Of a stretch of DNA of 64,000 nt, positions 41,284 through 63,390 are shown one piece after another. This DNA comes from an uncultured Rubripirellula sp. (GTDB taxonomy: Bacteria > Planctomycetota > Planctomycetia > Pirellulales > Pirellulaceae), in the NCBI GenBank assembly GCA_938045805.1, contig CALIBL010000035.1, forward strand, positions 186,001-250,000, written 5' to 3'. A program made the position numbers and the translations under genes. The notes beneath the pieces were generated by a model. That model saw only the letters and a list, made by a program, of their open reading frames with translations. It was not told where the DNA came from and did no database searches. Each line of letters opens with the position of its first letter. Position 1 is the first letter of the stretch.

Positions 41284-41721
41284 ATGAAGTGTCTTTGCAT
41301 CGCCCTACTCGGGATATTGGTCGCCCCATCCATTTCGCAAGCAGATGAACTGAAGAAGTTTGGCCTTGATGGCCTCGAATCCATTTCTGAGGCATCCGCT
41401 AATCAGGTTCGTGGAGCCGGTCGTGTGACATCACGAACCACTGGCTCGGCTGGATTAACTGCAACTGTACTAGATCCCGACAGCGGGTCGATCTGGAATT
41501 TCAATGTCACGCAGTTCAATCAAACTACGGATGACAAAAACAGCGTTTATGGCAACCAGTATCGATCAGCTCTAAGCTCCACCTTCTCCGACATGGTGAT
41601 AGGCATTGGGGATGTGGGTATCACTCTCGGTGAGTTCCAATTCCAGATGACGGGATCGGCTGCCCGCGCTGCGGCGAGAACCAGCGCCGGAGCACTAGCC
41701 CAGCAGATCTTCCAAAATTGA
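41284..41721 (+). CDS. Leader-motif exported protein, subfamily C (C1)
   Basis: A 145-residue protein of a family I do not recognise. A signal peptide (KCLCIALLGILVAPSISQA) is directly followed by the shared block: FGL at its start, LES in the middle, ending VRGAG (about residues 26-46). The body carries the second shared block LDPDSGSIWNF and the third VGITLGEFQFQMTG, and ends in an Ala-rich helix (AARAAARTSAGALAQQI). It is a lone plus-strand gene between outer-membrane barrel B and the minus-strand leader genes. By position and design it should be exported and possibly cleaved after the RG or RGxG site. It groups with the proteins at 41939 and 62968 by its solitary gene position and its DP-containing second block. 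Confidence 0.75.
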   Translation: MKCLCIALLGILVAPSISQADELKKFGLDGLESISEASANQVRGAGRVTSRTTGSAGLTATVLDPDSGSIWNFNVTQFNQTTDDKNSVYGNQYRSALSSTFSDMVIGIGDVGITLGEFQFQMTGSAARAAARTSAGALAQQIFQN

Positions 41722-41938
41722 ATGTCGCACAGATAACGGGTTCGCTTGAAAAGGGAGACAACTGACTCCGAACCTTCAAATGATTTGGCGTGGAGAAAAG
41801 CTGCGATCCAACTGAGGTAAAGGTTCTCTACCGAGATAGCGGAGCGGGTAAAAACAACGCGAAGTTAAAGACAGGCGAGGTTCGTCTAGCACGCTCTAGG
41901 TCTGTGAGTCACGGTCAGGGTAACTGACTTGAAACCGT

Positions 41939-42394
41939 TTAATAATTAGAGAGTGCAAAACCGGTGGCTTGAACCACTCCTCGCATTGCAGATTCTAAGT
42001 CGACGATCTGCGTTGACACCTGCAATGTCGCCTCGCGATCCCAGTTGACATTACTCCGAGCAAAAGGGCTGATCAGCTGACTATCGGAAACGTAGTCCGC
42101 CGCTTCGGTCAGTTGAATCGAGTGCCCCTTGATAAAACTCGCGGTGTCAGGGTCAAAAAGCATCCCCGAAATGAAACTAATTCCATAATGACGAGTTTCC
42201 AAGTAGGTGCCTCGCACCTGATTAGCTTGTGACTTCGGGAGCACCTCCAGAGACGACAGTCCAAATGCGGCGAGTTCATCGGAATCTCGTTCTTCCGCAA
42301 ACAAATCACCTGCACCAAGGCCAAGGGTCAGCGCCATCGCGAAGAGAATTACTTGACGAAATTTCAACAGCAGGGAGTCGCTAGATTCTGACAT
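41939..42394 (-). CDS. Leader-motif exported protein, subfamily C, divergent (C2)
   Basis: About 151 residues from the ATG at 42394 (12 codons inside the open frame). A signal-like hydrophobic segment (VILFAMALTLGLGAGDLFA) precedes the leader block with FGLSSLEVL and VRGTY; this is the only member in which the final glycine is replaced (Tyr). The body begins HYGISFISGMLFDPDTASF, close to the SGFSFVSGILVDPNTTS of the protein at 62968, so these two form a pair within subfamily C. The third beta block is not evident. The altered end of the leader may mean it is processed differently or not at all. Confidence 0.7.
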   Translation of the reverse strand: MSESSDSLLLKFRQVILFAMALTLGLGAGDLFAEERDSDELAAFGLSSLEVLPKSQANQVRGTYLETRHYGISFISGMLFDPDTASFIKGHSIQLTEAADYVSDSQLISPFARSNVNWDREATLQVSTQIVDLESAMRGVVQATGFALSNY

Positions 42395-42688
42395 AGAAGT
42401 GGCACGGGGAAGGAAGTGCGCGAAATCCAAATACCGCCATAAATCAGCGGGACGATGTCAAGATTTAGATCACTCAGATCGTGAGACTGTTTGATTTCTT
42501 CGATATCCTCGCGTTACACCCCGTCTCTGTTCGCTTTGTTCGGGTTAGACCGATTATTAAGACAACCAGACCCATCGACCGACTTTTAGCCAAGGTTCGT
42601 GCCAAACCAGGTCAATTCAATCAATTGACTGAATCTTTGAGAGCGGAACTGAGACCAGACGGGATCTTCTAACTCGATCGGTATAGGC

Positions 42689-42719
42689 AAAAAAAAACGA
42701 GCGGCCTACAAGGCCGCTC
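42689..42719 (-). terminator. Rho-independent terminator after the B1 leader gene
   Basis: Read on the minus strand: GAGCGGCCT, a three-base loop, AGGCCGCTC, then a run of nine T. The nine-base stem is perfect (42699-42707 with 42711-42719). It lies about 70 bases downstream of the stop of the gene at 42789 and ends the A1-B1 cassette. Confidence 0.9.
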
Positions 42720-42788
42720 GCGAACACTTTATGCTGAATGCCGTGGAGGAATCCAGCACTCAGTGATCCAACTCGAGAGAGAGATGGA

Positions 42789-43265
42789 TTAAACTTCGGG
42801 TACTTCTGCTGCGGGTACTTCCACTTCAGGAGCTTCAACTTCGGCTTCATGTCCTCCAACTTCGCTGAAGAAGTTGCCAAGACCGCCACCGATGGCTCCG
42901 ATTTCGAAACCGGTAGTCATGACGGTGAAGTCATCGATCATGATCCCTGCTGGACCAATTCCGGTGAACGAGTCGGTGAGTGACTCAAATCCGAAAGTTT
43001 CCATGGTGGCAAGACCACTCGTAGCATCTGAAACGTTAATGCTCGCACCCTGGAGATTGATGCTCGAGCCCGAAAGGTAGTCAAAAGCGAAGATCTGGAA
43101 AGAAGCCATTCCGGTGGAAAGAGCACCTTGACCACGGATTTCAGCACCAGCAGCGTCGCTAACAGTTTCGACGTTGCCAAGACCGAAAGCACTCAGGTCT
43201 TCAGCTTTGGTTGGAGCAACTGATGCCACAACCAGCAAAGCGGCAAGTAAAGCTTTGATTTTCAT
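42789..43265 (-). CDS. Leader-motif exported protein, subfamily B (B1)
   Basis: A 158-residue protein: signal peptide (MKIKALLAALLVVASVAPTK, cut near AED), leader block with FGLGNVETVS and IRGQG, then the subfamily B body FQIFAFDYLSGSSINLQ and third block GIMIDDFTVMTTGFEIG. A C-terminal tail repeats acidic E-V-x-x-P units (EVEAPEVEVPAAEVPEV), unique to this member. AAGGA lies eight bases before the ATG. It is the second gene of a cassette: the subfamily A gene at 43318-43794 ends 52 bases upstream, and a strong terminator follows. Its closest relatives here are the proteins at 60691 and 61240. Function unknown; a secreted structural or surface subunit is plausible. Confidence 0.78.
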   Translation of the reverse strand: MKIKALLAALLVVASVAPTKAEDLSAFGLGNVETVSDAAGAEIRGQGALSTGMASFQIFAFDYLSGSSINLQGASINVSDATSGLATMETFGFESLTDSFTGIGPAGIMIDDFTVMTTGFEIGAIGGGLGNFFSEVGGHEAEVEAPEVEVPAAEVPEV

Positions 43266-43317
43266 TGTTAATGTCCTTGTCTTTTAAATGATTTGTCTAG
43301 TTGATGAGAACGGATGC

Positions 43318-43794
43318 TTACTCTGCAGTAACAACAGGAAGCAATGATTGGAAGTCAAGTTCAAACGATGCACCACCAATTTGGCTGGTTTGACCAACGG
43401 ACGAGAATCCGTCCATCGTGAAGCCAAAGGTGTCGCCGAGCGAGAATTCAGCGGATCCGAACTGGACACCACCAACTTGATTCAAGCCCAAGGCTTGTAG
43501 ACCGCCATCGATAGCCAGTCCATCATCGATGGTGCTGAACATGGAATCCACGCCAGTCGTTTGTGAAGTCGCGTTCAGGTTGAAAATCGACCCACTGGTG
43601 CTGTCAACGATGGTGAAAGCAAGCGAGTTGGTAGCAATCGCATTCAAACTGGAATCTAAACCACGACCACGAACGTCCATTGCTTGGGCGTCAGAAACGT
43701 TCTCAAGTCCAGACAAACCGAATCCGGACAAGTCTTCACCACGACAAGTGGTGGCTGCGAGTAGCATCAAGGCTACGGCACAAATCTTTTTCAT
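43318..43794 (-). CDS. Leader-motif exported protein, subfamily A (A1)
   Basis: A 158-residue protein from the ATG at 43794 (another ATG is adjacent), with GAGGAG upstream at good spacing; the frame is open to 43959 but the extension is not needed. Signal peptide (KKICAVALMLLAATTCRG), leader block FGLSGLENVS...VRGRG, then the subfamily A body SLAFTIVDSTSGSIFNLNA, followed by GGVQFG, FGFTMDGFSSV, and the ending FDFQSLLP-like LDFQSLLP. The latter parts are near-identical in design to the proteins at 60188 and 61751. First gene of a two-gene A-B cassette with the gene at 42789. Confidence 0.78.
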   Translation of the reverse strand: MKKICAVALMLLAATTCRGEDLSGFGLSGLENVSDAQAMDVRGRGLDSSLNAIATNSLAFTIVDSTSGSIFNLNATSQTTGVDSMFSTIDDGLAIDGGLQALGLNQVGGVQFGSAEFSLGDTFGFTMDGFSSVGQTSQIGGASFELDFQSLLPVVTAE

Positions 43795-44200: not shown

Positions 44201-45202
44201 TTACGTCGAGGAACGTTTTTTTCGTGGAATGATTTCACGATCCTTCAGGCTAGCCGCCATCATCCAGCGATAACGCTCGCCTTCGACCTGAATAACCACG
44301 TAGCGAGCATTAACCGTTTGAACGCGGCCACGAGTTCCGTAAAAATCAAAATCGCCCCCCTCCCGCAACACGACCTGCTCGTTCGTTCGGCGATCCATCA
44401 CCCACACCTCTCGTGTCGCTGAATTGAGGACCGTTCCCACCTGCACAATCTGATCTGAGTAATCCGGTTTCGGCGGAGGAGCCACGACGATGGGCTTCAC
44501 CGGGTCCTTCGTCACCATCACCGTTGGCTCTCGCTTGATCGGTTCGGCTTTAGGGATCTCCTTCACAATTAAAAATGGTGAAACCTGTTCCGCCACGGCA
44601 TCCCGATGCCGTGTATTGACCAACTGACCCAACTCCTCGCGAACCGACTCAGGTAACAATTCAGATCGATCCTCGGCACCATCAACAATCATACAATCCA
44701 GCTGAATCTGCACATCTAAGCGGTCTTCATACTCCGTGTCGGCCAAACGAACTGACACTTCGGAAACCTGATGCATCAAGGGAGTTTCATCGATTGACAT
44801 GAGAAAATACTGCAAGCCAGAATAATCAGTGACCCCGGAGACATTAAACGACAACGTCTTCATTCCGAGAGCCAAATCTTCGACAGATGATGGCGTCACC
44901 TGAACGTCGGCGAACGACGAATCCGAACATGCATCAATCAGCCAGTTTTGATAGAGGGTTGCTGCCTCAGATGGTCGAGCAGGCAATGTTTTCATCAACC
45001 AATCTTGATAAGCGGCCTCGGCTTGCTCAATCCTCACTGCAAGCCTCTTCTGCGCCAACAATTCCGTCTCCAACTCATCGACTTGCATCTGCCGATCAGC
45101 AAGCGGTTTTAGCAGCAAGTTCTCGGCCATATCGTAGACGCGCACGCCGAGCACGGAGATAGCCAAAACAAGTAATAATAATTTTGAACGTTGTTGAAAC
45201 AT
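44201..45202 (-). CDS. PilO/GspM-like protein with C-terminal PilP/GspC-like region
   Basis: A 333-residue bitopic protein: an N-terminal membrane helix (LLLLVLAISVLGVRVYDMA), a coiled coil (about 35-65), then an alpha/beta domain (TLSFNVSGVTDYSGLQYFLMSIDETPLMHQVSEVSVRL) that matches the PilO/GspM ferredoxin-like domain. After a Pro/Lys linker (about 220-250), a small beta domain (VGTVLNSATREVWVMDRRTNEQVVLREGGDFDF) resembles the pilotin/HR-type modules of PilP or GspC. So it may link the inner-membrane platform to the secretin. It is the last gene of the secretion operon, 56 bases after the PilM/PilN-like gene. Confidence 0.72.
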   Translation of the reverse strand: MFQQRSKLLLLVLAISVLGVRVYDMAENLLLKPLADRQMQVDELETELLAQKRLAVRIEQAEAAYQDWLMKTLPARPSEAATLYQNWLIDACSDSSFADVQVTPSSVEDLALGMKTLSFNVSGVTDYSGLQYFLMSIDETPLMHQVSEVSVRLADTEYEDRLDVQIQLDCMIVDGAEDRSELLPESVREELGQLVNTRHRDAVAEQVSPFLIVKEIPKAEPIKREPTVMVTKDPVKPIVVAPPPKPDYSDQIVQVGTVLNSATREVWVMDRRTNEQVVLREGGDFDFYGTRGRVQTVNARYVVIQVEGERYRWMMAASLKDREIIPRKKRSST

Positions 45203-45258
45203 CTTTTCGTTCAGCTAGGTGGACAGAAGCACTTGTGGACAAAAATACTCTTGATCGA

Positions 45259-46800
45259 TCAAATCTCAGACTCGGAAGCCGAGTTTGTTGAAGGCAAAAT
45301 TGGAGAGTTCTCAAGCGGTGAAGTCTCTTCTTGATTGGAGGAATCACCCTGGGCTGGGGCCGCCACCTTCAAATCGAGTTCGAACTGATGGATAAAGGGT
45401 TCAGCTCCTTCATTTTGAAAAAACGGTCGCGGATCCATCTCGTACGGACTCGACGCGGAGGAAAGCCGCTTGTTCATTTCCATGATGTCTGACTGGTCTT
45501 TCGCAAATCCCACAGCACTGGCAGCGGGCAATTCACCATCCTGTGAGCTTTGAAAGACCAACTGACGTAGATAAGCCTCATTTTTTTCTGGAAGGTTTTG
45601 CTTCAGTGCAGATAACTCTGAAAGCCAATCCACCCTGGCCTCTTCCCAATCACCAACCACGGCTGCCACGCGGAGCAAACGCTCACTCTTCTGATTAAGT
45701 GTCGTCAGCTGATCAACTTCGGAATGCAGTTCCGCCCAGCGCCCCTCCACCTCCAGCTTCCGCTGCTCCAACTGGCGATACCCTGTCAAACACAACCAAC
45801 CAATCAGAGATGCCGCGGTCGCCGCGTAGAGGGACTTCAAAACCCACCGGCTCTTCGGTCGCTTTGGAGACAATAAATCGATCGTCTCATTGCGATGCCG
45901 TTGTTGCGAGATTAGAGCACCGGCGAGCAATAGCGATTCTGCACACAACTGCTCAGATCGTTTACCGGGCGCCGATCGGGAATCAATTTGAAACAACATC
46001 CGGTAATCAAAAATCTGGCTGTTGGTGTCATGCTCATCCTCGAGCCGGTCGCTAACCTTTGCACCCCATACCGGATCATCGCACATCAACAACGCGTCCT
46101 TAGGTTCGAATCCCTCATGCTTTCTTTGCACTGCTTTGAGAAATCGGGAAACGACCGGATAGATCAAATCAGACGTGGGGGATTGAGTCTCGAAAATCGA
46201 CTCAGTGTGAGACGCGATCAGCTTTCCGTCTCGAACTGCCATCAGATCGATCCGCCTATCGGACGAAAGAACGAATAAATTGAACTTCTCGTTCCCTGGA
46301 ATTCGTTTAGTCGCTGTCAACATCGAATGGGCTGCTGAGGTAACCGATTGAACGCGGAAACCAGATTGCCCAAACTCTGCAACGATCCGGTTCACGGTTG
46401 CTTCCGAGGTGATGGCAACACCCAACTCCATGCTCCCCTTATCGGATCGATGTATCGAAAAGTCACAAAGAGTATCCTGCAACTTCAGCATCGGCATCGC
46501 CTCAACTTGCAACTGAACGACACTAGGAAGTGATGCAAGACGAGTGGGGGGTAGCGACAGGGAACGATCGATCAATGATGGAGAAGAGAGGATCACCGCA
46601 GCTGTTGATGGTTTCCAGCCCAATCTCCCGAGCTCATCTCGAAGCATCACGCTGAAGCCTTCTGAGCCGGGACGTTCTGGGTCGCCAAACTTCCCTTTGG
46701 GTAAGCGTATAAAAGCTTTGACATCGATGCGTCCTCGACGCACCACCCCTTCCACAAAGCTGATGCAATGCTGATCAATAAGTATTGCTTGGCGGATCAT
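45259..46800 (-). CDS. GspL-like protein: PilM-type cytoplasmic domain fused to PilN-type region
   Basis: A 513-residue protein. The first roughly 320 residues read as a PilM/GspL-type actin-fold domain (ILIDQHCISFVEGVV, LSSPSLIDRSLSLPP, VQLQVEAMPMLKLQDTLCDF, and FVLSSDRRIDLMAVRDGKLIASH). A membrane helix follows at about 333-352 (ATAASLIGWLCLTGY), then a coiled coil with a PilN-like periplasmic part (VDQLTTLNQKSERLLRVAAVVGDWEEARVDWLSELSAL). A Ser/Pro/Glu-rich tail ends the protein. This fused arrangement is the GspL layout of type II secretion, in which the cytoplasmic domain docks GspE. It starts four bases after the gspJ-like gene. Confidence 0.78.
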   Translation of the reverse strand: MIRQAILIDQHCISFVEGVVRRGRIDVKAFIRLPKGKFGDPERPGSEGFSVMLRDELGRLGWKPSTAAVILSSPSLIDRSLSLPPTRLASLPSVVQLQVEAMPMLKLQDTLCDFSIHRSDKGSMELGVAITSEATVNRIVAEFGQSGFRVQSVTSAAHSMLTATKRIPGNEKFNLFVLSSDRRIDLMAVRDGKLIASHTESIFETQSPTSDLIYPVVSRFLKAVQRKHEGFEPKDALLMCDDPVWGAKVSDRLEDEHDTNSQIFDYRMLFQIDSRSAPGKRSEQLCAESLLLAGALISQQRHRNETIDLLSPKRPKSRWVLKSLYAATAASLIGWLCLTGYRQLEQRKLEVEGRWAELHSEVDQLTTLNQKSERLLRVAAVVGDWEEARVDWLSELSALKQNLPEKNEAYLRQLVFQSSQDGELPAASAVGFAKDQSDIMEMNKRLSSASSPYEMDPRPFFQNEGAEPFIHQFELDLKVAAPAQGDSSNQEETSPLENSPILPSTNSASESEI

Positions 46801-46804
46801 TAAA

Positions 46805-47689
46805 TTACCTCTGAACCCTCGCGGAATCCTGTACTCGATTGGAGTGGTGAACCATTGTCACCAACGAATAGCCGCCCCGCGTTGATTGATTGCTCCTCTG
46901 CGATCCAAACTTTCCCGAAGGTATCGAACCGGTTTCCTTTTCCAGTTGAATGCTTGACTCGATTGCAATCGGATCATCCAAGTTCGATGCATCGGGAACC
47001 AACCAATTCGAGCCATCAAAAACACGAAAGGTGACTGACTCTAGTTCAGGCCGCTCAAACATTGGATCGACGCCGATCAGACGCAACGCCCTCTCACTGC
47101 CATCTCGAATCAGCAAGCAGCGATGAAATCCAGGTTGTGGCGGAACATCCATCTCGGGAGCTTGAAGTGACAAACCCAGCCTGCGCAGGTGATCTCCTAA
47201 TTCGTTCTCAAAGCCCTCGGCAGAGACGAAATAGGCAACATATTTCGCTCCCCATGATGCATCCTTCAGGTCAGCCTGATGGGGTAACGCCGGCGGGGCA
47301 GACCAAATCGACTGCAGCAATAGAAACTCACTGCTCACTCTAATCTCCGATCCAGCGGGTCCCCCTTGGACCAGAAACTGTCGAAACCGATCTGAGGCAA
47401 AGGAATCGTTTGCGGTCAGCGAAAGATACTGTTCCGAACCCTCCGACATCGTCTTCAAATCATCATGAATTCGAAACAACACCGTCCTCGCAACGGAATC
47501 GTTGAGCGTGGACTGCGTTCCCGCATGAGACAATCTCGCCGCCACATCAACTGAGGAGTAGACCAACATCAGCACCACCGAACTGAGCACTGTCGAGATC
47601 ATGACCTCGAGCAAAGTAAACCCAAGCTGGGCTTTAGTCACTGGACGCCGGATCGCACTGACCGATTTCATCACATTGAATCGTTGCAT
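46805..47689 (-). CDS. gspJ: GspJ-like minor pseudopilin
   Basis: About 294 residues from the ATG at 47689 (AGGAG 11 bases upstream); another ATG lies at 47671. The class III-type prepilin signal QLGFTLLEVMISTVLSSVVLML has Gly at -1, Phe at +1 and Glu at +5, followed by the hydrophobic helix. The body has the size and beta-rich pattern of GspJ (FLVQGGPAGSEIRVSSEFLLLQSIWS, FRVFDGSNWLVP). It begins four bases after the gspI-like stop, in the order G-H-I-J typical of type II secretion. Minor pseudopilins cap the pseudopilus tip together with I and K. Confidence 0.8.
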   Translation of the reverse strand: MQRFNVMKSVSAIRRPVTKAQLGFTLLEVMISTVLSSVVLMLVYSSVDVAARLSHAGTQSTLNDSVARTVLFRIHDDLKTMSEGSEQYLSLTANDSFASDRFRQFLVQGGPAGSEIRVSSEFLLLQSIWSAPPALPHQADLKDASWGAKYVAYFVSAEGFENELGDHLRRLGLSLQAPEMDVPPQPGFHRCLLIRDGSERALRLIGVDPMFERPELESVTFRVFDGSNWLVPDASNLDDPIAIESSIQLEKETGSIPSGKFGSQRSNQSTRGGYSLVTMVHHSNRVQDSARVQR

Positions 47690-47693
47690 TTCC

Positions 47694-48134
47694 CTAACGT
47701 CTCCTTTTACCGGCGGTTGTCGCAAGAGACTTGACTTGCTCAACACTTACCCACTGGGACCAATGGACCGAAACACGCGATGGTCTCCCGCCATCGATTC
47801 GTTTCACCGTTACGGAGACGCAAACTAAATCAGCATCACCTACCGGATTGCTCTCCCAGCGGAACGTCCAATCCTGATACGGATGCGAACATCGATAATC
47901 GCGACCCTGCTGAAATCCGTGCTTTGAATTAGCGAGAAGGGTTTCCAATGATGTCTGAGCAACGCAAAGTGCTAGCGTCCGATCACTACGATCCACCGAA
48001 CTTCTTAGACCATTGGTGATCAAAAGATTCACGCCAGTCAGCGCAACAGTCATCAGCGAGATCGAAAGTAAAACCTCAACCAGCGTAAACCCACCTAAAG
48101 CAGAACGACTAGACCGTAATCCTCGCTGCCTCAC
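47694..48134 (-). CDS. gspI: GspI-like minor pseudopilin
   Basis: A 146-residue protein with the prepilin signal LGGFTLVEVLLSISLMTVALTGV (Gly at -1, Phe +1, Glu +5). Its GTG start overlaps the stop of the preceding gspH-like gene as GTGA, so the pair is translationally coupled. The body (CVAQTSLETLLANS..., DWTFRWESNP, VCVSVTVKRIDGG) fits GspI in length and position: the segment after the helix resembles the A-x-x-x-L-E-x-L pattern of GspI proteins. Confidence 0.8.
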   Translation of the reverse strand: MRQRGLRSSRSALGGFTLVEVLLSISLMTVALTGVNLLITNGLRSSVDRSDRTLALCVAQTSLETLLANSKHGFQQGRDYRCSHPYQDWTFRWESNPVGDADLVCVSVTVKRIDGGRPSRVSVHWSQWVSVEQVKSLATTAGKRRR

Positions 48135-48742
48135 CGTTTGGCTCCTTGGCTTGAGGAGTTCTTCAATCGTGAAAGTTGACCGGTGATCGCATCAACTCCA
48201 ATCCAGTGTCGCCTTCCGGATCGATCCATGATTCCAAACGACTGAGAACTCGCAGATCCATCCGGTAGCCAATAGACACCAATTGAATCCTGCGCGCCGC
48301 GAATCAGCGGATGACTCGAAACAAAACGGAAATCACTCGATAACTCACCCTGCATTACCGAACGCAAGATAAGTTCCGATTGGCCCATTGATCCCTTGTT
48401 ACTGGATGGAGAACCTGACCGTTCAACTTCTAAAACTTCGAAAGTTGACTCACCGGGGTAACAGCGAAAGAGATAAACATTCGCATTATCAATCGCCATG
48501 GTTCGCGTTTGGCCGAGAATTGCACCGACATCACTCACGGCGCGATTCACGGCATCAGCCTCATAGAGCCGCATCAAGTTCGGGATCACAGTGCTCATGG
48601 AAATCAAAATCAATGCAAGACAAATCAACACTTCCATCAATGTCATGGCAGATCTAGCAACGAATCTTTGCACCGGTTGACCCTCGATGACCGAAAATCG
48701 GCTAGGAGTCGGTCCAAGTAGCATTGAATTCATCTTCCACAT
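48131..48742 (-). CDS. gspH: GspH-like minor pseudopilin with Ala at the cleavage site
   Basis: A 203-residue protein with a prepilin signal VARSAMTLMEVLICLALILISMSTV: Glu at +5 and Met at +1 are present, but the -1 residue is Ala rather than Gly. The preceding leader is long (about 35 residues). The body AVNRAVSDVGAILGQTRTMAIDNANVYLFRCYPGESTFEV matches the GspH layout. It lies 107 bases after the gspG-like gene and overlaps gspI. The Ala at -1 is shared with the gspG-like protein encoded next door. Confidence 0.78.
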   Translation of the reverse strand: MWKMNSMLLGPTPSRFSVIEGQPVQRFVARSAMTLMEVLICLALILISMSTVIPNLMRLYEADAVNRAVSDVGAILGQTRTMAIDNANVYLFRCYPGESTFEVLEVERSGSPSSNKGSMGQSELILRSVMQGELSSDFRFVSSHPLIRGAQDSIGVYWLPDGSASSQSFGIMDRSGRRHWIGVDAITGQLSRLKNSSSQGAKR

Positions 48743-48849
48743 GACGACAACTTATCCCCGCTTCACACCAACCAACGATGACTGGTGACTTTGTGTTCGT
48801 TCCCCCAAATCACCCCCCGAACTCCATCCCCGCAGTGCAATCCCACAGG

Positions 48850-49311
48850 CTAAGCCTCATTTGAATCCCAGTTCACGATATCATCCTCGTTACCATGAAC
48901 TCCGTCCGGTCCACCGGATGAAAGGTCGAACGGCTTGGTAGACTTCGACGCGGGATAGACGTAGCGGAAATCGCGTCGCCACGCATCTTTAGGAAGGTCT
49001 TCCAGATAAGGACCCTGCCAAAGGTCTGCCTCGGAAGCATCTGGGCAACTAATTAACGCATCGATTCCCTGACCCGCTGATGGGTAGCGTCCATCGTGGT
49101 CGATCGCATAAAGCTTCAAAGCCTGTTCAAGACCTTTCAAACTAATTTTTGTTGTGTCCGCATTTGCTTTTTCTTGGCGGTTCACAAGACGCGGTACGAC
49201 CGCACTTGCGATCACCAATAAGATGGTGACGACGAGCAACACTTCGATCAGAGTCATCGCTGATCGATAGCCAATTTTTAATGAGTGATGTGATAAATTC
49301 ATCGCTTTCAT
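48850..49311 (-). CDS. gspG: GspG-like major pseudopilin with Ala at the cleavage site
   Basis: A 153-residue protein: a prepilin signal YRSAMTLIEVLLVVTILLVIA (Ala at -1, Met at +1, Glu at +5), then RLVNRQEKANADTTKISLKGLEQALKLYAIDHDGRYPSAGQGIDAL and WQGPYLEDLPKDAWRRDFRYVYP. The latter two blocks are strongly diagnostic of GspG (T2SS major pseudopilin), as is the C-terminal DLSSGGPDGVHGNEDDIVNWD, a calcium-site loop. Ala in place of the usual Gly before the cleavage point is unusual. It begins five bases after the gspF-like stop. Confidence 0.9.
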   Translation of the reverse strand: MKAMNLSHHSLKIGYRSAMTLIEVLLVVTILLVIASAVVPRLVNRQEKANADTTKISLKGLEQALKLYAIDHDGRYPSAGQGIDALISCPDASEADLWQGPYLEDLPKDAWRRDFRYVYPASKSTKPFDLSSGGPDGVHGNEDDIVNWDSNEA

Positions 49312-49316
49312 ACCAA

Positions 49317-50510
49317 TCAGGTGAGACTTTCCGCCGACTGCAGAATCGGCAGTAATAACGCAAGTAAAAGAAAAAGGATTGCCACCGCCATAACGAGCAG
49401 AAGCAATGGTTCAAGCATGCGGATGTAAAGATCGAGCGTTCGGTTAGCCTGTCGCTCAAGCGTATCCGCGGTGTTTTGTAAAATTTTGTCTAGGCGGTTT
49501 GTGCTTTCGCCCACGCGAATCAGCTCGACAAGCTCATCCGAAAACTGACCACTACGTTGCAATGGGGCCGCTAGCGACTGCCCAGAAGCAATACTGTCAG
49601 AGGCAGATCGAATCGCCTGACTCATGGTCTGACTGCCGGTCACATGACGAGACACTTCGAGTGATGCAAGAATTGGAACGCCGTTTTGCAGCATCGTGCC
49701 GAGCACACGGCAGAATCTTGAGGTTGCGTACTGGCGGACAATCGGACCAACACCCCACAGGTTCAACTGCACGCGATCTCTGAGTGACTGGCCAGCCTCC
49801 GTTTTCAACCAGGTCCACATCGAAATCACAACCATTCCAGTTACCAAGGCAACCATCATGGCATGTTCTTGAATCAGCTCACTTCCGCCGAGAAGGATCA
49901 CCGTTGGCAATGGTAACTCACCGCGTTTCTCGAGCCGCTCGAAGATCACCTCGAATCGCGGCACAAAGAAAACAAGCATCGCAACCAGCTGTAAGGTTCC
50001 CATACCAACCAAAAACGCCGGATAGGCAATCGCCCCAACGATACGACTCCTCAGGTCTTCACTTCGTTCAGTGAAACGAGAAAGACTTCGTAGCGACTCC
50101 TCAAGAAATCCACCCTCTTCGCCAGCGCGAAGAATATTGACGGCAAAACCGCTGAAGACCTTCCTGTGATGTGAGAAAGCCTTCGAAATACTTTCCCCGT
50201 TTGCAACTCGGATCTTCACATCACGAAGAACGGGTGAAAGACCCGATTGCTGACCACGTTCTGCGAGTAACTCAAGGGACCGAACCAACGGAACACCCGC
50301 CTCGAGTAAATCAGCCAGATTTGTGTAGCAATTGGATAAATCCCTTGATTTGATCTTCGTCTTACCAACCACCACAGGCACATCGTGAACCTTGGTCGGA
50401 ACGAGTGCTTTCTGCACCAGAGCACGCAGTGCCTCCGCTCGTGAGTCTGCACCAATCTCACCTCGCACCACCTTGCCAGCAGCATTCCGTGCAACGTATT
50501 GAAATTGCAT
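49317..50510 (-). CDS. gspF: GspF inner-membrane platform protein
   Basis: About 397 residues from the ATG at 50510, four bases after the gspE-like stop. It starts MQFQYVARNAAGKVVRGEI, the standard GspF opening, and carries two T2SF domains (LADLLEAGVPLVRSLELLAERG and LGTMLQNGVPILASLEVSRHVTGS) with three membrane helices (about 165-190, 215-237 and 370-393). RVGESTNRLDKILQNTADTLERQANRTLDLYIRMLEPLLLLVMAV completes the family signature. GspF links the ATPase GspE to the pseudopilus base. Confidence 0.92.
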   Translation of the reverse strand: MQFQYVARNAAGKVVRGEIGADSRAEALRALVQKALVPTKVHDVPVVVGKTKIKSRDLSNCYTNLADLLEAGVPLVRSLELLAERGQQSGLSPVLRDVKIRVANGESISKAFSHHRKVFSGFAVNILRAGEEGGFLEESLRSLSRFTERSEDLRSRIVGAIAYPAFLVGMGTLQLVAMLVFFVPRFEVIFERLEKRGELPLPTVILLGGSELIQEHAMMVALVTGMVVISMWTWLKTEAGQSLRDRVQLNLWGVGPIVRQYATSRFCRVLGTMLQNGVPILASLEVSRHVTGSQTMSQAIRSASDSIASGQSLAAPLQRSGQFSDELVELIRVGESTNRLDKILQNTADTLERQANRTLDLYIRMLEPLLLLVMAVAILFLLLALLLPILQSAESLT

Positions 50511-50514
50511 TGCT

Positions 50515-52059: not shown

Positions 52060-52459
52060 AGCTCTGAATCTACCGTGAGGTTCGCATGGACTTTCATGAA
52101 CCTGGCATGAACTTTCAAGCACCGAGAAGTAACGCCGCAGCGTGATTCATGATGCAACCACAACAGGTTTTACCGATGAGATTCCCCCAAAACTCATAAG
52201 CCACACTATCTACGGAACCGCGTGTGTCAAAGCAAACCATACGATTCCTAGCACTTGTTTTCACCATTGAAGGGGTCGTGCCGGTTGTGACGGTTATGCG
52301 GTTTGTGAGCCCTCACGCCGTCGAAAGAAAACCTGCAGCAAGAATGAAGCGTCGCGAGGGAGAAACGTTGTGTGGTGCACGACTGAACCACGTTGTGAAC
52401 CTCACAGTGCGAAGCTTTTATTACGGTGATGAAGCAAGGAAGAGAGAAGAAATCTATCC

Positions 52460-54747: not shown

Positions 54748-55153
54748 AGCCTCTCCTCTCAACTCCACATAGGAATGACAGTTAAATGGAAAATAAGGGT
54801 CGTCATGCCTGTAACGATTGTGCGGCATGTAACGCCTGTAGGAGTTAAGCGAGGTGTAGCGATTGATTTTCCAATTTTCTTGGAAGGCAACGGTGATTTC
54901 CTAGAACGTTTAACATTGCAAACCTGAGAAAACGTGGGAATTGTTGCAAAAAAACAACAACCTGAAATAGTCCGCACAAAATGCATCTTTAGTTGATTTT
55001 TTTGAACAAAAACCAATTGCATTCCTCCGTGACGCAACGAAAGTGCATCAAACAGACGGGGGTTTGTCAGTAACCGAAAGGTTGTGTTTAGCAGTGAGTC
55101 TGGGGGCTGAGAGATTCACTGGTTCAATCAACAAGTACCCCTTGATTCAGATC

Positions 55154-55867: not shown

Positions 55868-55909
55868 ACCATCTACCCGCACGCATCTGAGACCCAAAGC
55901 GAGAAACTT

Positions 55910-57099: not shown

Positions 57100-59529
57100 T
57101 CACTGACCTGATGCAACACCAATCTGTGCCCGCTCCAGTTCATCTTGTTCAATCAAACCCGCTCCCGTATCACCGCCAGCATTGTGATCATAAAACGAGT
57201 TGAGCCGACGCATTTCGGAGCGTGTACGATTCGGAAGTTCGACGAGCCCCAATTCGTGGGCATCATGAACTTCGGCGTCTTCATCTGACTCAAGAACCGT
57301 TGGGGTCAAAAAGATCAATAACTCTTTGCGGCTGACCGTCTCAACATCATGTCGGAAGAGTCGCCCCACCCACGGTAGATCACCGAGCCATGGGACTTTG
57401 GATTCGGAGGTAACCGTTTGATTTCCGATCATCCCCCCAAGCACGATGGTCTGACCATCTTTGACAGCCACGGTCCCGTCAGCTTTGGTCAGATCCTTGA
57501 TGGGAGCCTCAATGACGTTTCCACTTGTTGCGTCAGTAAAAATAGGAACTCCTGAACCCCGTCCGGTTCGATACGCACTCTTCTCAGCCTTCACATCCAC
57601 CACCACGGTGCCGTCGGGACTGATTCGTGGCGTGACCTCAAGAATGATTCCAGCGTCGGATTGCCGGATCACTGGATTCGCACTCCCCACTGCGGTGATG
57701 TTCACGCCATCCACCACGGGAACTTCCTGCCCGATCTGAATCTTACCCATCACATTGTGAACCGTGCGTATCTGTGGCCGACTCAGAATGGAGACGTCCC
57801 GTTTCGCCGCTAGCGCTCTGAGTAGAAAGCTGACTGACTCAGATCCGCCGGACAGGACCAAACCACCAAAACCTGTTTCATTATTGATTCGCCCCACCGA
57901 AAAATTGGATAGCCCCTGAGAACCTACCCTCGAAGGGTTCACTGCAATATTGTTACCCAACGGTTGATTATTGAACGCAAACCCGGGTGAACCCTGCTGG
58001 GAAATGATGACCTGATCGGTTGTCTGAATATTTCCATTGGTGACCGTTTCGGTGATGGTCATGATGTCATCAATCACGCTACGATCAAACAGGATTGAAT
58101 CCTGTAATCCAATTTCAACGCCGAACTCGTCTGTCGTCCCCAGGTCGACTTCCACCAACATCGCTTTGATCACCACTTGATGGGGTGGTGCATCCAATTT
58201 GGCGATCAAATCCTTAACAACTTCAAAGTAACGTGGCTGTGCGTTGATCAACAAACTGTTTGTGTTCATCTCTGCAACACATATCACTTTGTACCCATCG
58301 ATGGGTTCACCTGTACCGACCACTCGGGGACCAGCTGCAGGACGCCCCGCACCGCCTGCCACACCGCCACCTTCACCGAAGAACTCATTCACGGCACTGC
58401 TCACCACGTCAGCGGGAACGTGATTGAGCTTAATAACCGTCATCGGACGCATTGCTACATCGCGTTCCGACAGCAGCAGAAGATCATCCAACTTGCGCAG
58501 GTTCGAAGCGAGGTCAGTGATGATTAGTGTATTCGATTCCGACAGAACATCCGTGCCACCAAATGTGCTGATTAGCAACTCAATTTCCTTCGCTAGTATC
58601 GACGCATCGCCATTCTCTATGGGAATTCGGAGCGAGGCGAGACTGTTCGAAGGGTATGTGTCCAAATCTTTGGTCTCGATCACAGGGATCAGGTTGGGAG
58701 GAATCTCTTCTGAAAGTGAATGCACTGTCAGGAATCCATCCCGTTGCATCAAGATGTAGCCTGCCTCAATCAACTGACCATTGAGAACATTCAGAGCCTC
58801 TTCGGGCGAGAACAACTTGGTGCTGACGAAATGAAAAGTACCACTTGGAACGGTACCCATCTGCAAAGAAAGTCCCGTCTCTTCGGCGAATCGATTCAAG
58901 ACGTCTCCCCATGGAGCGCCTTGAAAATTAAACGTGAAACCGGTCACTTGACCTGCGGGAACTTCTTCAACTTGGCGACCTGCTCGCTTCCGCTTTCTGG
59001 CTTCATTCTCTGCAATCAATTTGAGACCGTCGCCGACCAAATTAGCGTTCTCAATTCCTGAAGGTTTGATAATTAGATCACTTGGCGAACTTTGGCCCGA
59101 TTGAATCTGCTGCTCAGCAGAACCCACCCCCGAAGTAGCATCAACTTGGGGAGAATCAGCTGTAACAACGCTCTTCGTATTCCGAGTATCTGTCTCACCC
59201 GCAGGCTTCCTTTTAGGAAGCTGACTCGGAGCAACTGCTGACGCGGTAGTTTTTTGTGCAATTCGAGTTGGTACTAAGCGTCCGGGAGCAACGCCTACAT
59301 TCACCTGACTAAAACGATCACTTGAATTGGCCGGTAGATCTCGAGCAGGAACATCAGAGGGATTATCCCTACTCAGCTGCGTGCTTGGATAGCCATCAAA
59401 ATTAGTGGACTGCGCCAGAACCGTGCTCAATGTGCATGAACCGTAGCCAAAGACAGCAAGCAGACACATCAATGTGGACCCTAAACCGAATGGCAGGGTC
59501 TTCTTCAAAAAGGATGTGATCATTTGCAC
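57100..59529 (-). CDS. gspD: GspD-type secretin
   Basis: An 809-residue protein with a GTG start that has GGAG six bases upstream; an ATG lies two codons later. An export signal (FGLGSTLMCLLAVFGYG) is followed by a low-complexity region. An N0-like domain comes next (VTGFTFNFQGAPWGDVLNRFAEETGLSLQ), then N1-N3 repeats (LRIPIENGDASILAKEIELLISTFGG, TVIKLNHVPADVVSSAVNEFFGEGG, KVICVAEMNTNSLLINAQPRYFEVVKDLIAKLD). The secretin barrel shows QVVIKAMLVEVDLGTTDEFGVE, RPQIRTVHNVMGKIQIGQEVPVVDGV, and the terminal signature VPWLGDLPWVGRLFR. It forms the outer-membrane gate of the secretion system. It is separated from the gspE operon by the dihaem protein and sigma/kinase genes. Confidence 0.92.
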   Translation of the reverse strand: MQMITSFLKKTLPFGLGSTLMCLLAVFGYGSCTLSTVLAQSTNFDGYPSTQLSRDNPSDVPARDLPANSSDRFSQVNVGVAPGRLVPTRIAQKTTASAVAPSQLPKRKPAGETDTRNTKSVVTADSPQVDATSGVGSAEQQIQSGQSSPSDLIIKPSGIENANLVGDGLKLIAENEARKRKRAGRQVEEVPAGQVTGFTFNFQGAPWGDVLNRFAEETGLSLQMGTVPSGTFHFVSTKLFSPEEALNVLNGQLIEAGYILMQRDGFLTVHSLSEEIPPNLIPVIETKDLDTYPSNSLASLRIPIENGDASILAKEIELLISTFGGTDVLSESNTLIITDLASNLRKLDDLLLLSERDVAMRPMTVIKLNHVPADVVSSAVNEFFGEGGGVAGGAGRPAAGPRVVGTGEPIDGYKVICVAEMNTNSLLINAQPRYFEVVKDLIAKLDAPPHQVVIKAMLVEVDLGTTDEFGVEIGLQDSILFDRSVIDDIMTITETVTNGNIQTTDQVIISQQGSPGFAFNNQPLGNNIAVNPSRVGSQGLSNFSVGRINNETGFGGLVLSGGSESVSFLLRALAAKRDVSILSRPQIRTVHNVMGKIQIGQEVPVVDGVNITAVGSANPVIRQSDAGIILEVTPRISPDGTVVVDVKAEKSAYRTGRGSGVPIFTDATSGNVIEAPIKDLTKADGTVAVKDGQTIVLGGMIGNQTVTSESKVPWLGDLPWVGRLFRHDVETVSRKELLIFLTPTVLESDEDAEVHDAHELGLVELPNRTRSEMRRLNSFYDHNAGGDTGAGLIEQDELERAQIGVASGQ

Positions 59530-60187: not shown

Positions 60188-60637
60188 ATGAAAAAAATCA
60201 TCTTCGCAGGTCTCGCTGCCCTTAGCAGCACATTCTGCAATGCCGCTGATCTTTCCCTTTATGGGCTTTCCAGCCTCACCGAAATTGCTGACGACTCGGC
60301 ACACTCCATCCGTGGTCAAGGCGGACTCTCAGTGGTCCGTTCGGTTGGAACCAGTTCGATGGCCTTCAGTATTGCAGACACGAAAACAGGTTCGCTCTTC
60401 AACCTGAACGCGACATCACAACTTACCGGACAGGACGGTGTCGAATTTTCCAGTGCAGACGGTGGTACACAAGCCGTCGGTAATACTGCGGTCGGGGGTA
60501 TTCAGTTCGGAACGGGAACGTTCGTGATGGACGACTTCACCTTCACTTTGGATGGCTTCTCTGTAGTCACCCAGGCACAACAAGTTGGCGGTCCAGGCAA
60601 AAGCCTCGACTTCAGCAGCTTGTTACCTCAGAACTAG
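60188..60637 (+). CDS. Leader-motif exported protein, subfamily A (A2)
   Basis: A 149-residue protein from the ATG at 60188 (17th codon of the open frame), beginning with the basic MKKIIFAGLAALSSTFCNA signal peptide. The leader block follows at once: YGLSSLTEI ... IRGQG. The subfamily A body is then complete: SSMAFSIADTKTGSLFNLNATSQ, AVGGIQFGTGTF, FTFTLDGFSVV, and LDFSSLLP at the end. The same four pieces occur in A1 (43318-43794) and A3 (61751-62197). It is the first gene of a two-gene cassette; the B2 gene starts 53 bases after its stop. Alternating strand pattern suggests a beta-rich extracellular subunit. Confidence 0.78.
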   Translation: MKKIIFAGLAALSSTFCNAADLSLYGLSSLTEIADDSAHSIRGQGGLSVVRSVGTSSMAFSIADTKTGSLFNLNATSQLTGQDGVEFSSADGGTQAVGNTAVGGIQFGTGTFVMDDFTFTLDGFSVVTQAQQVGGPGKSLDFSSLLPQN

Positions 60638-60690: not shown

Positions 60691-61113
60691 ATGAAGAACA
60701 TTGCAATCTTATCCGTGCTAGCGACCCTGTTGTCCGTTTCGTCTACCTGTGCTAACGACCTAGATGCATTCGGTCTTGGGCAGATTGAACCGCTTACTGA
60801 GGAACAGTCCAATCAAGTTCGAGGACAAGGGCTCGATTCCGTGAGCATGTCCACTTTCCAAATCTTTGCATTTGATCCCGCATCTGGTTCATCGATTAAC
60901 CTGCAGTCCGCATCTCTCAACTCGACGCTCGGACTACAAATCTCGGGGTTTGAAGTCGAACCATTAGTAACCAGTAGTTCGTACGCAAGCATGTCTGCTA
61001 CTGGTGTATCCATCAACGACTTCGTGCTTCAAACCTTGGATCTTGATATCGGTGCCACCGGAGCCGCGTATTATCTCGGCACCGATCTGTTTGAACCGCA
61101 CTTCGACGAATGA
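60691..61113 (+). CDS. Leader-motif exported protein, subfamily B (B2)
   Basis: A 140-residue protein from the ATG at 60691 (signal peptide MKNIAILSVLATLLSVSSTC). Leader block FGLGQIEPLT ... VRGQG, then the subfamily B body MSTFQIFAFDPASGSSINLQSASL and the third block GVSINDFVLQTLDLDIG. Its closest relative is B1 (42789-43265), which shares SxFQIFAFDxxSGSSINLQ almost unchanged. Second gene of the A2-B2 cassette and followed by a strong bidirectional terminator shared with the convergent A3-B3 cassette. Confidence 0.78.
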   Translation: MKNIAILSVLATLLSVSSTCANDLDAFGLGQIEPLTEEQSNQVRGQGLDSVSMSTFQIFAFDPASGSSINLQSASLNSTLGLQISGFEVEPLVTSSSYASMSATGVSINDFVLQTLDLDIGATGAAYYLGTDLFEPHFDE

Positions 61114-61183: not shown

Positions 61184-61239
61184 CCTCATTCGATCGCGTC
61201 CGTGCGACTAAATGAGCAACACCTGTCTTGCTAGAAACA

Positions 61240-61704
61240 TTATTCGGCAGATGGTGTAGAGAATGAATCAAACAGGATTGAAGAACCTGAAGCAGCACCG
61301 TCGCCCCACGCTCCCAAAGCAAATTCACTCGTGGAGAGGGTGAAGTCACCGAACGCCAGGTCAAGAGAACTGATGGTTGAAACCGATTGAGTTGCACTCG
61401 CGACGAAAGATGTGTCCGCGTCTGTTTCAGAAGAAACATCGCCATACTCTGACGAAGTGTTAATTGCACTTGAAGACAAGTTCACACTCGATCCCCCAGC
61501 ACTATCAAAAATAAAGACTTGCATCGCCGTCATTGCAGTGGATTCAGACGATGCGTAACCCGCTCCTCGTACAAGCCCAGCTTGATCGTCGGAGATTGGC
61601 TGAAGCGATTGAATTCCAAACGAACTCAGATCAGCTGCATTTGCTCCCTGTTGGCATAAAACAACAAGACAGGCAACAGCGAATTTCGCGATAGTAGATT
61701 TCAT
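61240..61704 (-). CDS. Leader-motif exported protein, subfamily B, divergent (B3)
   Basis: About 154 residues from the ATG at 61704 (another ATG three codons earlier). Signal peptide (KFAVACLVVLCQQGANA), leader block FGIQSLQPIS ... VRGAG, then the B-type body MTAMQVFIFDSAGGSSVNLSSSAI, with a Ser/Thr/Ala-rich insert, and the third block LAFGDFTLSTSEFALG. It starts 46 bases after the stop of the A3 gene on the same strand, so it is the second gene of the A3-B3 cassette. It is less similar to B1 and B2 than those are to each other. Confidence 0.76.
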   Translation of the reverse strand: MKSTIAKFAVACLVVLCQQGANAADLSSFGIQSLQPISDDQAGLVRGAGYASSESTAMTAMQVFIFDSAGGSSVNLSSSAINTSSEYGDVSSETDADTSFVASATQSVSTISSLDLAFGDFTLSTSEFALGAWGDGAASGSSILFDSFSTPSAE

Positions 61705-61750
61705 GATTAACATCCAAATGTTGTAGGTGTTGTTGATACGCAGCGAGAAA

Positions 61751-62197
61751 TTAGTTGCCGCCTAGGGATGAGAAGTCGAAGACACCCGCTGGACCAGCAG
61801 CTAGGCTCGATTGAGACACCGCAGTGAAGCCAGTCAAGGTAAAGCTAAATTCATCCAATTCAAAAGTTGCATCGCCGAACTGGATTCCGGCTTGAGCAAT
61901 CGCTCCCACGGCCTGACTTGAACCCGAGGCATTCTCGGAAATGTCAGCTGCATCATGTGAAAGGATCTGCGAGTTCGAATTCATGTTGATGACCGAGCCA
62001 GAAGCTTGATCCGCAATCGACAGTGCGAATGACTGTGTTGCTAAAGACTTGACCTGCGCGGCCAAGCCGAGCCCGCGGACATGAGTTCCGTCTACGTCGC
62101 TGACGGGTTCAAGGCTGGCAAGCCCAAATGCTCTCAGCTCTTCCGCTGAGGCTTGTGTTCCAAGTGCGAGTGCTAACAGTAAGCAGAATAATCGCAT
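61751..62197 (-). CDS. Leader-motif exported protein, subfamily A (A3)
   Basis: About 148 residues from the ATG at 62197, with GGAGA at good spacing upstream. Signal peptide (MRLFCLLLALALGTQASA), leader block FGLASLEPVS ... VRGLG, then SFALSIADQASGSVINMNSNSQ, AGIQFGDATFELDEFSFTLTGFTAV, and the ending FDFSSLGG. Relative to A1 and A2 the glycine/serine pattern and the FTFTxDGF-like strand are kept. First gene of the A3-B3 cassette, convergent with A2-B2. Confidence 0.77.
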   Translation of the reverse strand: MRLFCLLLALALGTQASAEELRAFGLASLEPVSDVDGTHVRGLGLAAQVKSLATQSFALSIADQASGSVINMNSNSQILSHDAADISENASGSSQAVGAIAQAGIQFGDATFELDEFSFTLTGFTAVSQSSLAAGPAGVFDFSSLGGN

Positions 62198-62967
62198 CAA
62201 ACTCTCCAATATGAAAAACAGGTGTGAATGATCGCTGCTCGTTCGAACCTTAGGAGCAAACAGCTGAATTAGTTACATGCCGAGTCCGTTCACGTGAGCT
62301 AGCGTTTTGCTAGTTCATTTTTTTATGTTTCTTCCACCCAAATTGGAATTAATCCAGCTTTTCTCGCCCGCTAAAACCTTCCAAATCGCTCCTAGCGGCG
62401 CAAGCCGACGTCTTGAGTTCGGATCGTGTTGGATACAACCTTTTTCATGTATTTGAAGCTGATTCGTCTTGTACTCTCTCTTCTAAATTTAGTGAAACGA
62501 CTTTGCGGACATCGCCAAATGCGCTTGTTAGGCGACCAATCACGACTTCACCGACTTTGATGTCTGATGAAGGACTGGTGCGTGCTTTAACGCAAACTTA
62601 GAAGGATCGGACCTGCACGACGTCAAACCAAACGCAGCAACCAAGCCAAAGCGATCCGCAACATTAGGCTGCGGATCTCACGCACACCCGCGATTGTCGT
62701 CAGCCTCCCTCATTGCGTGGCCGATTCTCTTTGCCTGACCGGCACAATCGATAAAACTCGATAGGCATGTCGATACGGCTGCTCGTTCCCTAGCAAAGGG
62801 TTCACCATTGATTACCGAGAAATCGATACACACAGATACACCGGAAGATGTGTGTGCCAATCCTCTATATCGCCGTACAGAATCGTCGCACAGAGTTGAT
62901 CAAGTTCGCCATCTTGATACACGATTAAGTTTCTCCACCTATCAAAAGCTTCACAGCGAGAAAGAAA
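62198..62967. other. Intergenic region, no gene recognised
   Basis: About 770 bases between the divergent A3 and C3 leader genes. Short open frames are present (for example one at 62413-62601) but have neither a signal peptide, a leader block nor other support. No RNA gene recognised. Confidence 0.45.
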
Positions 62968-63390
62968 ATGCGTCATCAAACCGTTTTGATTGTGGCACTC
63001 ATTTCTATCTTTGCCGTATCTCAATCCTTTGCGGACCAACCGCATCAGGTCGGTGCCGACACAGTTAACCTCTTAGAGATGTATGGACTAGAAGCTGTTC
63101 AGCCGATCAAAACTTCAACCGCATCGTCGGTTCGGGGTGAAGGTGGTGTCGCACAAACAAGCGGCTTCAGTTTTGTCAGCGGGATTCTGGTTGACCCCAA
63201 CACGACCAGTAATATTTTCGGACTCGATGCCAACTCGGCTTTTTCTCTACTCACGCTCGATGATCCAATTCGCCCTGCTGATCCCATCCACCAGCATCAG
63301 TCCCAACTGGAGCTTGAGTTGATCGTGGACAGCTATTTTTCCAACATTTTGGGCGGAGCCGGCGGAGCTGCTGCTGCCTATTTCAGGTAA
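62968..63390 (+). CDS. Leader-motif exported protein, subfamily C (C3)
   Basis: A 140-residue protein with a signal peptide (VLIVALISIFAVSQSFA), a short spacer (DQPHQVGADTVNLLEM), then the leader block YGLEAVQPI ... VRGEG. The body begins SGFSFVSGILVDPNTTSNIF, close to C2, and ends in a glycine/alanine-rich ILGGAGGAAAAYF stretch. The third beta block seen in subfamilies A and B is not obvious. It is a single plus-strand gene, convergent with the GspK-like gene, so it again borders the secretion genes. Confidence 0.72.
   Translation: MRHQTVLIVALISIFAVSQSFADQPHQVGADTVNLLEMYGLEAVQPIKTSTASSVRGEGGVAQTSGFSFVSGILVDPNTTSNIFGLDANSAFSLLTLDDPIRPADPIHQHQSQLELELIVDSYFSNILGGAGGAAAAYFR

Follow-up and report, generated by a model that had tools for sequence, protein, structure and literature searches.

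In the 64,000-nucleotide stretch of an uncultured Rubripirellula sp. genome analyzed here (the window), nine genes encode small exported proteins that carry the same 21-residue block after the signal peptide, and the same stretch encodes a stand-alone C39 cysteine peptidase beside a FapF/FilC-like outer-membrane channel. Judging from sequence comparison, we consider it probable that the block is a leader, a substrate tag recognized and cleaved by this periplasmic, Sec-exported C39 peptidase, and that the matured proteins would then leave through the FapF-like channel. A first-pass annotation of the window had described the block and proposed it as a cleavable leader; all of the open reading frames, strands, and residue counts that it gave for the nine genes were recovered in our analysis, with the block free of gaps in each (9/9), as listed here.

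41284..41721 (+), leader-bearing exported protein 1, block 41359-41421 (FGLDGLESISEASANQVRGAG)
41939..42430 (-), leader-bearing exported protein 2, block 42203-42265, ending VRGTY
42789..43265 (-), leader-bearing exported protein 3, block 43125-43187
43318..43794 (-), leader-bearing exported protein 4, block 43660-43722; its ATG is internal to an open frame that runs on to 43959
60188..60637 (+), leader-bearing exported protein 5, block 60260-60322
60691..61113 (+), leader-bearing exported protein 6, block 60769-60831
61240..61713 (-), leader-bearing exported protein 7, block 61558-61620
61751..62209 (-), leader-bearing exported protein 8, block 62066-62128
62968..63390 (+), leader-bearing exported protein 9, block 63082-63144

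The start codon is uncertain in two of these genes: the 41939 gene may begin at its TTG or at an ATG further on, near 42394, and the 61751 gene at its TTG or at an ATG near 62197. The signal peptides were called by eye from a basic n-region, a hydrophobic stretch, and small residues at -3/-1. Every block begins with [FY]-G-[LI], is hydrophobic at positions 6 and 9, and has Ala, Gly, or Ser at position 14 and [VI]-R-G at positions 17 to 19 (9/9 for each). The less strict features reported previously also held on recounting, with Gly at position 21 in 8/9 (the exception being Tyr in the 41939 gene), Glu or Gln at position 7 in 8/9, and Ser, Thr, or Ala at position 10 in 7/9. A pattern derived from the block occurs at exactly nine places in the window across its six frames and at none in 40 third-order Markov simulations, and a profile of the nine proteins (E up to 1) finds nine places in the genome assembly, all of them in the window, the same nine that are found by a profile of the leader. 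Because the alignment of the nine proteins continues beyond the block, with an invariant Asp and an invariant Ser in the mature part, they form one paralogous family, in agreement with the first-pass annotation. Ser (14.7 percent), Ala, Gly, and Thr abound in the mature parts. Scans of the nine against Pfam and NCBIfam returned only weak and unrelated-looking matches (SpoVAE at 22.5 bits, flagellin at 15.9 bits, and Oest_recep), and for one of the nine a sub-threshold match to DUF6160 (14.3 bits, cut-off 27) was used as a lead. The AlphaFold model of one of these proteins, P0005, is poor (pLDDT 62.6, pTM 0.30) and gives no more than a hint of strands in the mature part. The NCBIfam models for FapB, FapC, and FapE matched none of the nine at E up to 10, in scans that covered the other proteins of the window in part.

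The proposed leader peptidase and the channel are encoded by overlapping genes, the C39 gene extending over the end of the channel gene.

33373..34128 (-), secreted stand-alone C39 cysteine peptidase, FapD/FilB-like, from NCBIfam, Pfam, alignment, and predicted fold
34116..35747 (-), FapF/FilC-like outer-membrane channel, from NCBIfam, FapF crystal sequences, and its conserved place beside C39

The best NCBIfam matches of the peptidase are FapD (98 bits, cut-off 330) and FilB (72.5 bits, cut-off 475), and its match to the Pfam C39 family (PF03412) scores 74.3 bits, above the gathering score of 22. C77, H164, and D180 do not vary across 17 aligned planctomycete C39 proteins, the window's own among them, the catalytic role of these residues being taken over from the peptidase family, and the structures nearest to its AlphaFold model (pLDDT 81) are PCAT1, ComA, and 6mpz, a C39 protease with a leader peptide. 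A FapD profile identifies it as the single FapD-like C39 in the source genome. The channel likewise falls below the NCBIfam cut-offs for its best matches, FilC (41 bits, cut-off 630) and FapF (35 bits, cut-off 700), and it matches the FapF crystal chains 5o65, 5o67, and 5o68 with E about 1e-6.

The occurrence of the leader follows that of the peptidase from genome to genome. The nine-protein profile matches 17 of 146 genomes drawn from the order and the FapD profile 21 of them, 17 of which have stand-alone frames of 241 to 401 residues with a best E of 8e-21 or lower each; the other four comprise three frames of 768 to 1084 residues, which judged by length are probably ABC exporters, and one weak frame of 254 residues (G100, 29 bits). 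It is the same 17 genomes that have the leader and the stand-alone FapD-like C39, and a comparable C39 occurs in none of the other 129, a result that supports the leader reading of the first-pass annotation, in which cleavage itself is still an inferred step. In each of three genera (g1, g2, and g3), some of the listed species have both leader and C39 and others have neither. In 16 of the 16 other genomes, a leader match and a C39 match are found less than 5 kb apart, and the corresponding gap in the window is 7.2 kb. Among 392 genomes of the phylum, with at most 16 and 6 first-look candidates scored per genome, such that weak cases may be missed, there were seven leader matches and five strong C39 matches (>230 bits), and the five genomes with strong C39 matches are the five with strong leader matches, including one new genome (G508) in which the two lie about 2.3 kb apart. 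The leader matches in G350 and G362 (about 22 bits) have no strong C39 in the same genome and are probably due to chance. Around the weaker planctomycete C39 matches, several of which look membrane-anchored, inspection by eye found no block in signal-peptide-like N-termini within 5 kb in 13 of 14 stretches, the fourteenth being G508.

A scan of genome contigs with the C39 alignment, from which the best 80 loci were kept, gave 34 planctomycete-type loci (two titled only 'bacterium') and 46 others, and eight of the 34 are contigs of genomes that belong to the 17 above, which makes the two sets overlapping. The leader is present within the stretch in 23 of the 34 planctomycete-type loci. The genomes of 10 of the 11 loci without a local leader were searched whole, and a match (E up to 0.01) was found in nine of them. 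In five genomes whose titles name Rubripirellula or Rhodopirellula, there are 9 to 12 leader matches each, some of which are short or lie at the end of a contig. A protein with a divergent leader ending VRGTGG (L062:12226-12675) is encoded in a second C39 island of G119, with its own C39 and channel adjoining. The leader genes L080:8986-9666 and L081:9873-10436 have no C39 match in the 20 kb around them, and their genomes have a C39 island elsewhere; it is possible that they encode clients in trans.

To compare leaders, we numbered Gly19 of the block as -2 and the residue after Arg-Gly as -1. An alignment of 33 planctomycete leaders (A2) has a hydrophobic residue, counting Ala, at -4, -12, and -15 in 33/33 each, a hydrophobic residue also at -18, Ser at -11 in 29/33, Asp at -10 in 27/33, and Arg-Gly at -3/-2, with Gly at -2 in 33/33; as the leaders were cut with a pattern demanding [VI]RG and the hydrophobic classes, these counts hold partly by construction. 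Dropped beforehand were two false seeds (a C39 N-terminus in L069 and a spurious frame in L081), the near-identical leaders of L075 and L078, and the divergent leader of L062. Thirty further planctomycete leaders, found by profile and with no pattern imposed, have [VI]RG in 30/30 and Gly21 in 19/30. The residue at -1 is not of the Gly-Gly/Gly-Ala type, being mostly Lys, Thr, Met, or Gln, with Arg, Ala, and others also found; -7 is Gly, Ala, or Ser in 33/33, and -8 is Glu in 14/33. The first-pass annotation had seen RGxG in the place of the double glycine. The Arg-Gly stands, and the second Gly is a planctomycete feature of limited constancy (26 of the 33 aligned leaders, against 0 of 11 FapE-type leaders), leaving RG-x as the core. 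A leader near the C39 gene of G508 (L137:5942-6454) has VRAK in place of VRG-x, which suggests that Ala is tolerated at -2.

A leader in the same register is present in FapE of Pseudomonas. The gene after fapD in eight Pseudomonas/Halopseudomonas loci, and likewise in a ninth locus, encodes a signal peptide followed by [LIV]-[SD]-D-x-E-L-x-x-L-R-G-R (FapE), and locus L222 is a true fap operon in which FapB, FapC, FapD, FapE, and FapF all score above their cut-offs. The planctomycete and FapE-type leaders align without gaps, and a block-only profile comparison with 11 FapE-type leaders gave a score of 19.0, where 200 column shuffles reached no more than 14.3; beyond the signal peptide and leader, the profile comparison found no alignment between FapE and the nine-protein family. 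The 11 FapE-type leaders all have Leu or Met at -7 and Glu at -8, residues required by the pattern that selected them; at -15 their residue is Pro, Ala, or Ser, and -18 is mixed. When only the mature part of FapE was used as a profile, 26 relatives were found within the 80 loci of the contig scan (10 of the 26 built the model), with Gly at -2 and Lys or Arg at -1 in 26/26 and with Arg at -3 in 17 (L200, one of these, being read by eye) and Thr in nine, the latter from Burkholderia/Paraburkholderia. Because of this split, Gly at -2 is common to the planctomycete and FapE leaders and Arg at -3 only partly so. The relatives with TG[KR] beside a FapD-like C39 (L209, L211, L220, L221, L223, L224, L226, L227, and L230) provide, against the RGR of Pseudomonas, a natural contrast for recognition at -3. 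Of 33 enzymes with Arg leaders (all 17 planctomycete rows being counted as Arg by assumption), 26 have an acidic residue at one column of the peptidase, and 4/4 with Glu leaders have a basic one, a charge covariation to which we give little weight because the column was picked after inspection, the sequences share ancestry, and the enzyme of the window has Thr at this column.

Previous work on the Fap system, cited throughout from excerpts of the papers, is consistent with a role for FapD in processing. FapD is periplasmic, and its active-site Cys is required for the secretion of FapC (PMC5557850). The excerpts of that 2017 paper call the target of FapD unclear and describe the Fap proteins as having no canonical C39 sites; they single out FapE as the only Fap protein with complete N-terminal processing, with no peptides detected in its first 70 or so residues (PMC5557850). 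The substrate of FapD, which is needed for amyloid secretion in Pseudomonas, was described as yet to be determined in the excerpted text of a 2018 review (PMC6173800), and according to that of a 2025 review, FapD is thought to process both FapE and FapF (PMC12822426).

The pattern of conservation bears on a further possibility, that the block simply belongs to the conserved fold of the mature protein, passed on with a domain family, and that its proximity to C39 goes back to an old operon. The nine proteins of the window are indeed homologous beyond the block, and a few residues in the block are fixed. Against this, in distant genomes the profile match spans mainly the signal peptide and the block, the mature parts looking unrelated, and the comparison with FapE aligns the signal peptide and leader only, and we consider this reading very improbable. 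Between the window and its sister genome G526, the block is identical at 7 to 18 of its 21 residues (mean 11) and the mature parts at 46 to 96 percent, with [VI]RG kept in 9/9 ortholog pairs. This fits, though not uniformly, a propeptide in which a few recognition residues are fixed.

Leaders also appear beside C39 genes in other bacteria. In a plasmid collection, 106 records match C39, and among 10 loci examined, six have leader-like exported proteins, ending in LRGG (Photobacterium), LRGR (Aeromonas), MRGG (Polymorphobacter), VRGG (Cupriavidus), and QGA (two Acinetobacter). One Acinetobacter plasmid (L083:4381-7628) has three leader-bearing paralogues (ELSRQEMKDTQGA) upstream of its C39 gene. 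Two Deinococcus plasmids (L090 and L091) have a short C39 gene, with no leader among the neighbors inspected, and the next gene in L091 is annotated as an outer membrane beta-barrel protein. Among the 46 non-planctomycete loci of the contig scan, an exported protein matching a strict leader pattern occurs in 18, where shuffles gave a mean of 0.075 loci; 21 of 301 proteins match, against a shuffle mean of 0.075, and since the pattern was written after examples had been seen, this contrast is not an independent test. The signal is thus not confined to the nine-protein family, related leaders being found in FapE and in other neighbors of C39 genes.

The channel gene is as constant a part of the island as the peptidase. 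A FapF/FilC-like gene adjoins C39 in 18 of 18 C39-bearing stretches (16 genomes), and linkage therefore cannot separate the enzyme from the channel. C39-like domains that carry out no proteolysis are known in type 1 secretion, and the block might be an uncut tag for targeting or docking at the FapF-like channel, or at the C39 protein acting as a chaperone, a reading that the constancy of the channel gene favors and that we regard as unlikely. The excerpts of PMC5557850 lend it some support, as they suggest the lost N-terminus of FapE as a targeting sequence for secretion through FapF, with FapD possibly cutting FapF. Arguing for an active protease instead are the invariant Cys, His, and Asp of the 17 planctomycete C39 proteins, the need of FapD for its Cys in secretion (PMC5557850), and the occurrence of the motif in the register of cleaved double-glycine leaders.

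Several other features surround the leader genes in the window.

31410..33371 (-), large protein with a barrel-like C-terminus (by eye), a conserved neighbor with a relative near C39 in 16/18 stretches; no credible Pfam family was found for it
38566..40956 (-), second large protein of the same kind, also a conserved neighbor
44201..52122 (-), type II secretion genes; gspG is above its NCBIfam cut-off, the best matches of gspE and gspF are below theirs, and H, I, J, L, and M-like genes are assigned from weaker matches or position
57100..59529 (-), GspD-like secretin, with Pfam Secretin above cut-off
63463..64000 (-), GspK-like gene, with Pfam T2SSK_1st above cut-off, continuing past the end of the window

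The nine leader genes lie to either side of the gsp genes, and the sister genome G526 has the same order, with a barrel gene, C39, channel, actin-like gene, barrel gene, and four leader genes, followed by gspM to gspE, sigma factor, kinase, gspD, and five leader genes; the gsp cluster is thus retained in G526, and gspD is retained beside leader genes in G529 and G530. This arrangement is what speaks for the nine proteins being substrates or tip proteins of the adjacent type II secretion machine, with the block as its secretion signal. We consider this quite unlikely, as block and C39 co-occur genome by genome and no homologues of the window's gsp genes were found in 20 stretches (5.9 to 20 kb) that surround leader or C39 genes in less closely related genomes, where all 18 stretches with C39 have the channel adjoining it. 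The first-pass annotation had proposed a profile search for the block near C39 or gspE genes; C39 accompanied it in 17/17 genomes, and the link to type II secretion genes, gspE included, is clade-specific, local to relatives of Rubripirellula/Rhodopirellula. Within this clade, export of the matured proteins by the type II machine is possible.

The conserved locus also includes an actin-like gene of the MamK/BeeR type (37275-38429), present in the sister genomes G526 and G530 as well. A gene pair for an ECF sigma factor and a Ser/Thr kinase-like protein (55043-56956), situated where the type II secretion cluster divides into two halves, is conserved in G526 and is a possible regulator of the locus. 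A MauG/MbnH-like di-heme protein is encoded inside the secretion cluster (52603-54828), at a place where G526 has only a short matching frame.

Under the leader-peptidase reading, each of the nine proteins would be exported by Sec, and signal peptidase would remove the signal peptide, so that a leader of about 25 residues becomes the N-terminal segment. The C39 peptidase at 33373-34128 would bind this leader through the hydrophobic residues at -18, -15, -12, and -4 and the Arg-Gly at -3/-2, and would cut after RG or after the following residue, the register favoring RG-x. In the weakest step of the scheme, the FapF/FilC-like channel would most likely take the matured proteins across the outer membrane, and they would act at the cell surface as subunits of a fiber, matrix, or adhesin. 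With less assurance, we lean toward a broader view in which RG-x (TG-K in some FapE relatives) behind a Sec signal is the recognition signal of a periplasmic C39 class extending from planctomycetes to Pseudomonas, in which FapD cuts FapE after LRG or LRGR, and in which Sec export, leader cleavage, and a FapF-type channel make up a general two-step export pathway, used by Rubripirellula/Rhodopirellula-like planctomycetes for families of about nine to twelve surface proteins.

Several observations weigh against the leader-peptidase reading. The probability of the 17/17 co-occurrence arising by chance, about 1.5e-22 if genomes are independent, overstates that independence because the genomes are related. 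The C39-bearing genome G534, searched whole, has no leader match (1/10), no leader was visible by eye in four of the 10 plasmid C39 loci, and 28 of the 46 non-planctomycete loci have none by the strict pattern. The channel gene is linked as tightly as the peptidase. The residue at -1 is Lys, Thr, Met, Gln, Arg, Ala, or another where classical leaders have Gly, and -7 is Gly, Ala, or Ser rather than Leu or Met. Identity between the window and G526 is higher in the mature part than in the block in six of nine pairs, the reverse being true of three. FapE leaders lack the hydrophobic residue at -15 and mostly that at -18, and nine of 26 lack Arg at -3; the two sets of leaders therefore agree only in part. 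In the excerpted data of PMC5557850, the gap in FapE peptides extends to about residue 70 and the proposed leader ends near residue 40, and FapF is also reported as possibly processed in its linker.

If the reading is right, the leader provides a precise predicted cleavage site and a rule for finding the substrates of this peptidase class in genomes. Among the matches listed in a search of open-licence PMC papers, neither an RG-x leader nor planctomycete clients were described. Pairs of fapD and fapF were already known from five further phyla, according to the excerpted 2018 review (PMC6173800), and the leader indicates a Fap/Fil-like export route in planctomycetes that serves many client proteins.

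Several known systems are close to this route. With the functional-amyloid (Fap) system of Pseudomonas, it shares a secreted C39 peptidase beside a FapF-like barrel and, in FapE, a signal peptide and a leader in the planctomycete register ending RG-[RK]; it differs in that the planctomycete FapD and FapF scores are far below the cut-offs (98 of 330 and 35 of 700 bits), in having nine leader-bearing paralogues in the window rather than one FapE, and in the hydrophobic residue at -15 that FapE leaders lack. The FilB/FilC 'putative pilus' system (NCBIfam names), which we take to have its origin in Acinetobacter, has a peptidase and a channel to which those of the window are related, and leader-like ELSxQEMKDTQGA proteins occur near C39 on two Acinetobacter plasmids; however, the scores are 72.5 of 475 and 41 of 630 bits, and the leader ends in QGA there and in RG-x in the window. 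Bacteriocin-type double-glycine leaders, which the C39 domains of ABC exporters such as PCAT1 and ComA cleave, have hydrophobic residues 4, 12, and 15 places before the cut, Leu or Met at -7, and Glu at -8. The planctomycete leaders have the same three hydrophobic positions, Gly at -2, and a short leader directly before the mature part, and the peptidase has the same C39 fold, but a Sec signal peptide stands in front of them and a stand-alone enzyme would presumably recognize them in the periplasm, with a constant Arg at -3, a residue other than Gly at -1, and Gly, Ala, or Ser at -7. Finally, the excerpted description of the Neisseria nap island (PMC11798529), in which NapP is the C39 protein and NapF the FapF-like channel, has class II microcin-like peptides with GG where the window has larger RG-x proteins, and it combines, as the window does, a C39 peptidase, a FapF-like channel, and small leader-bearing products.

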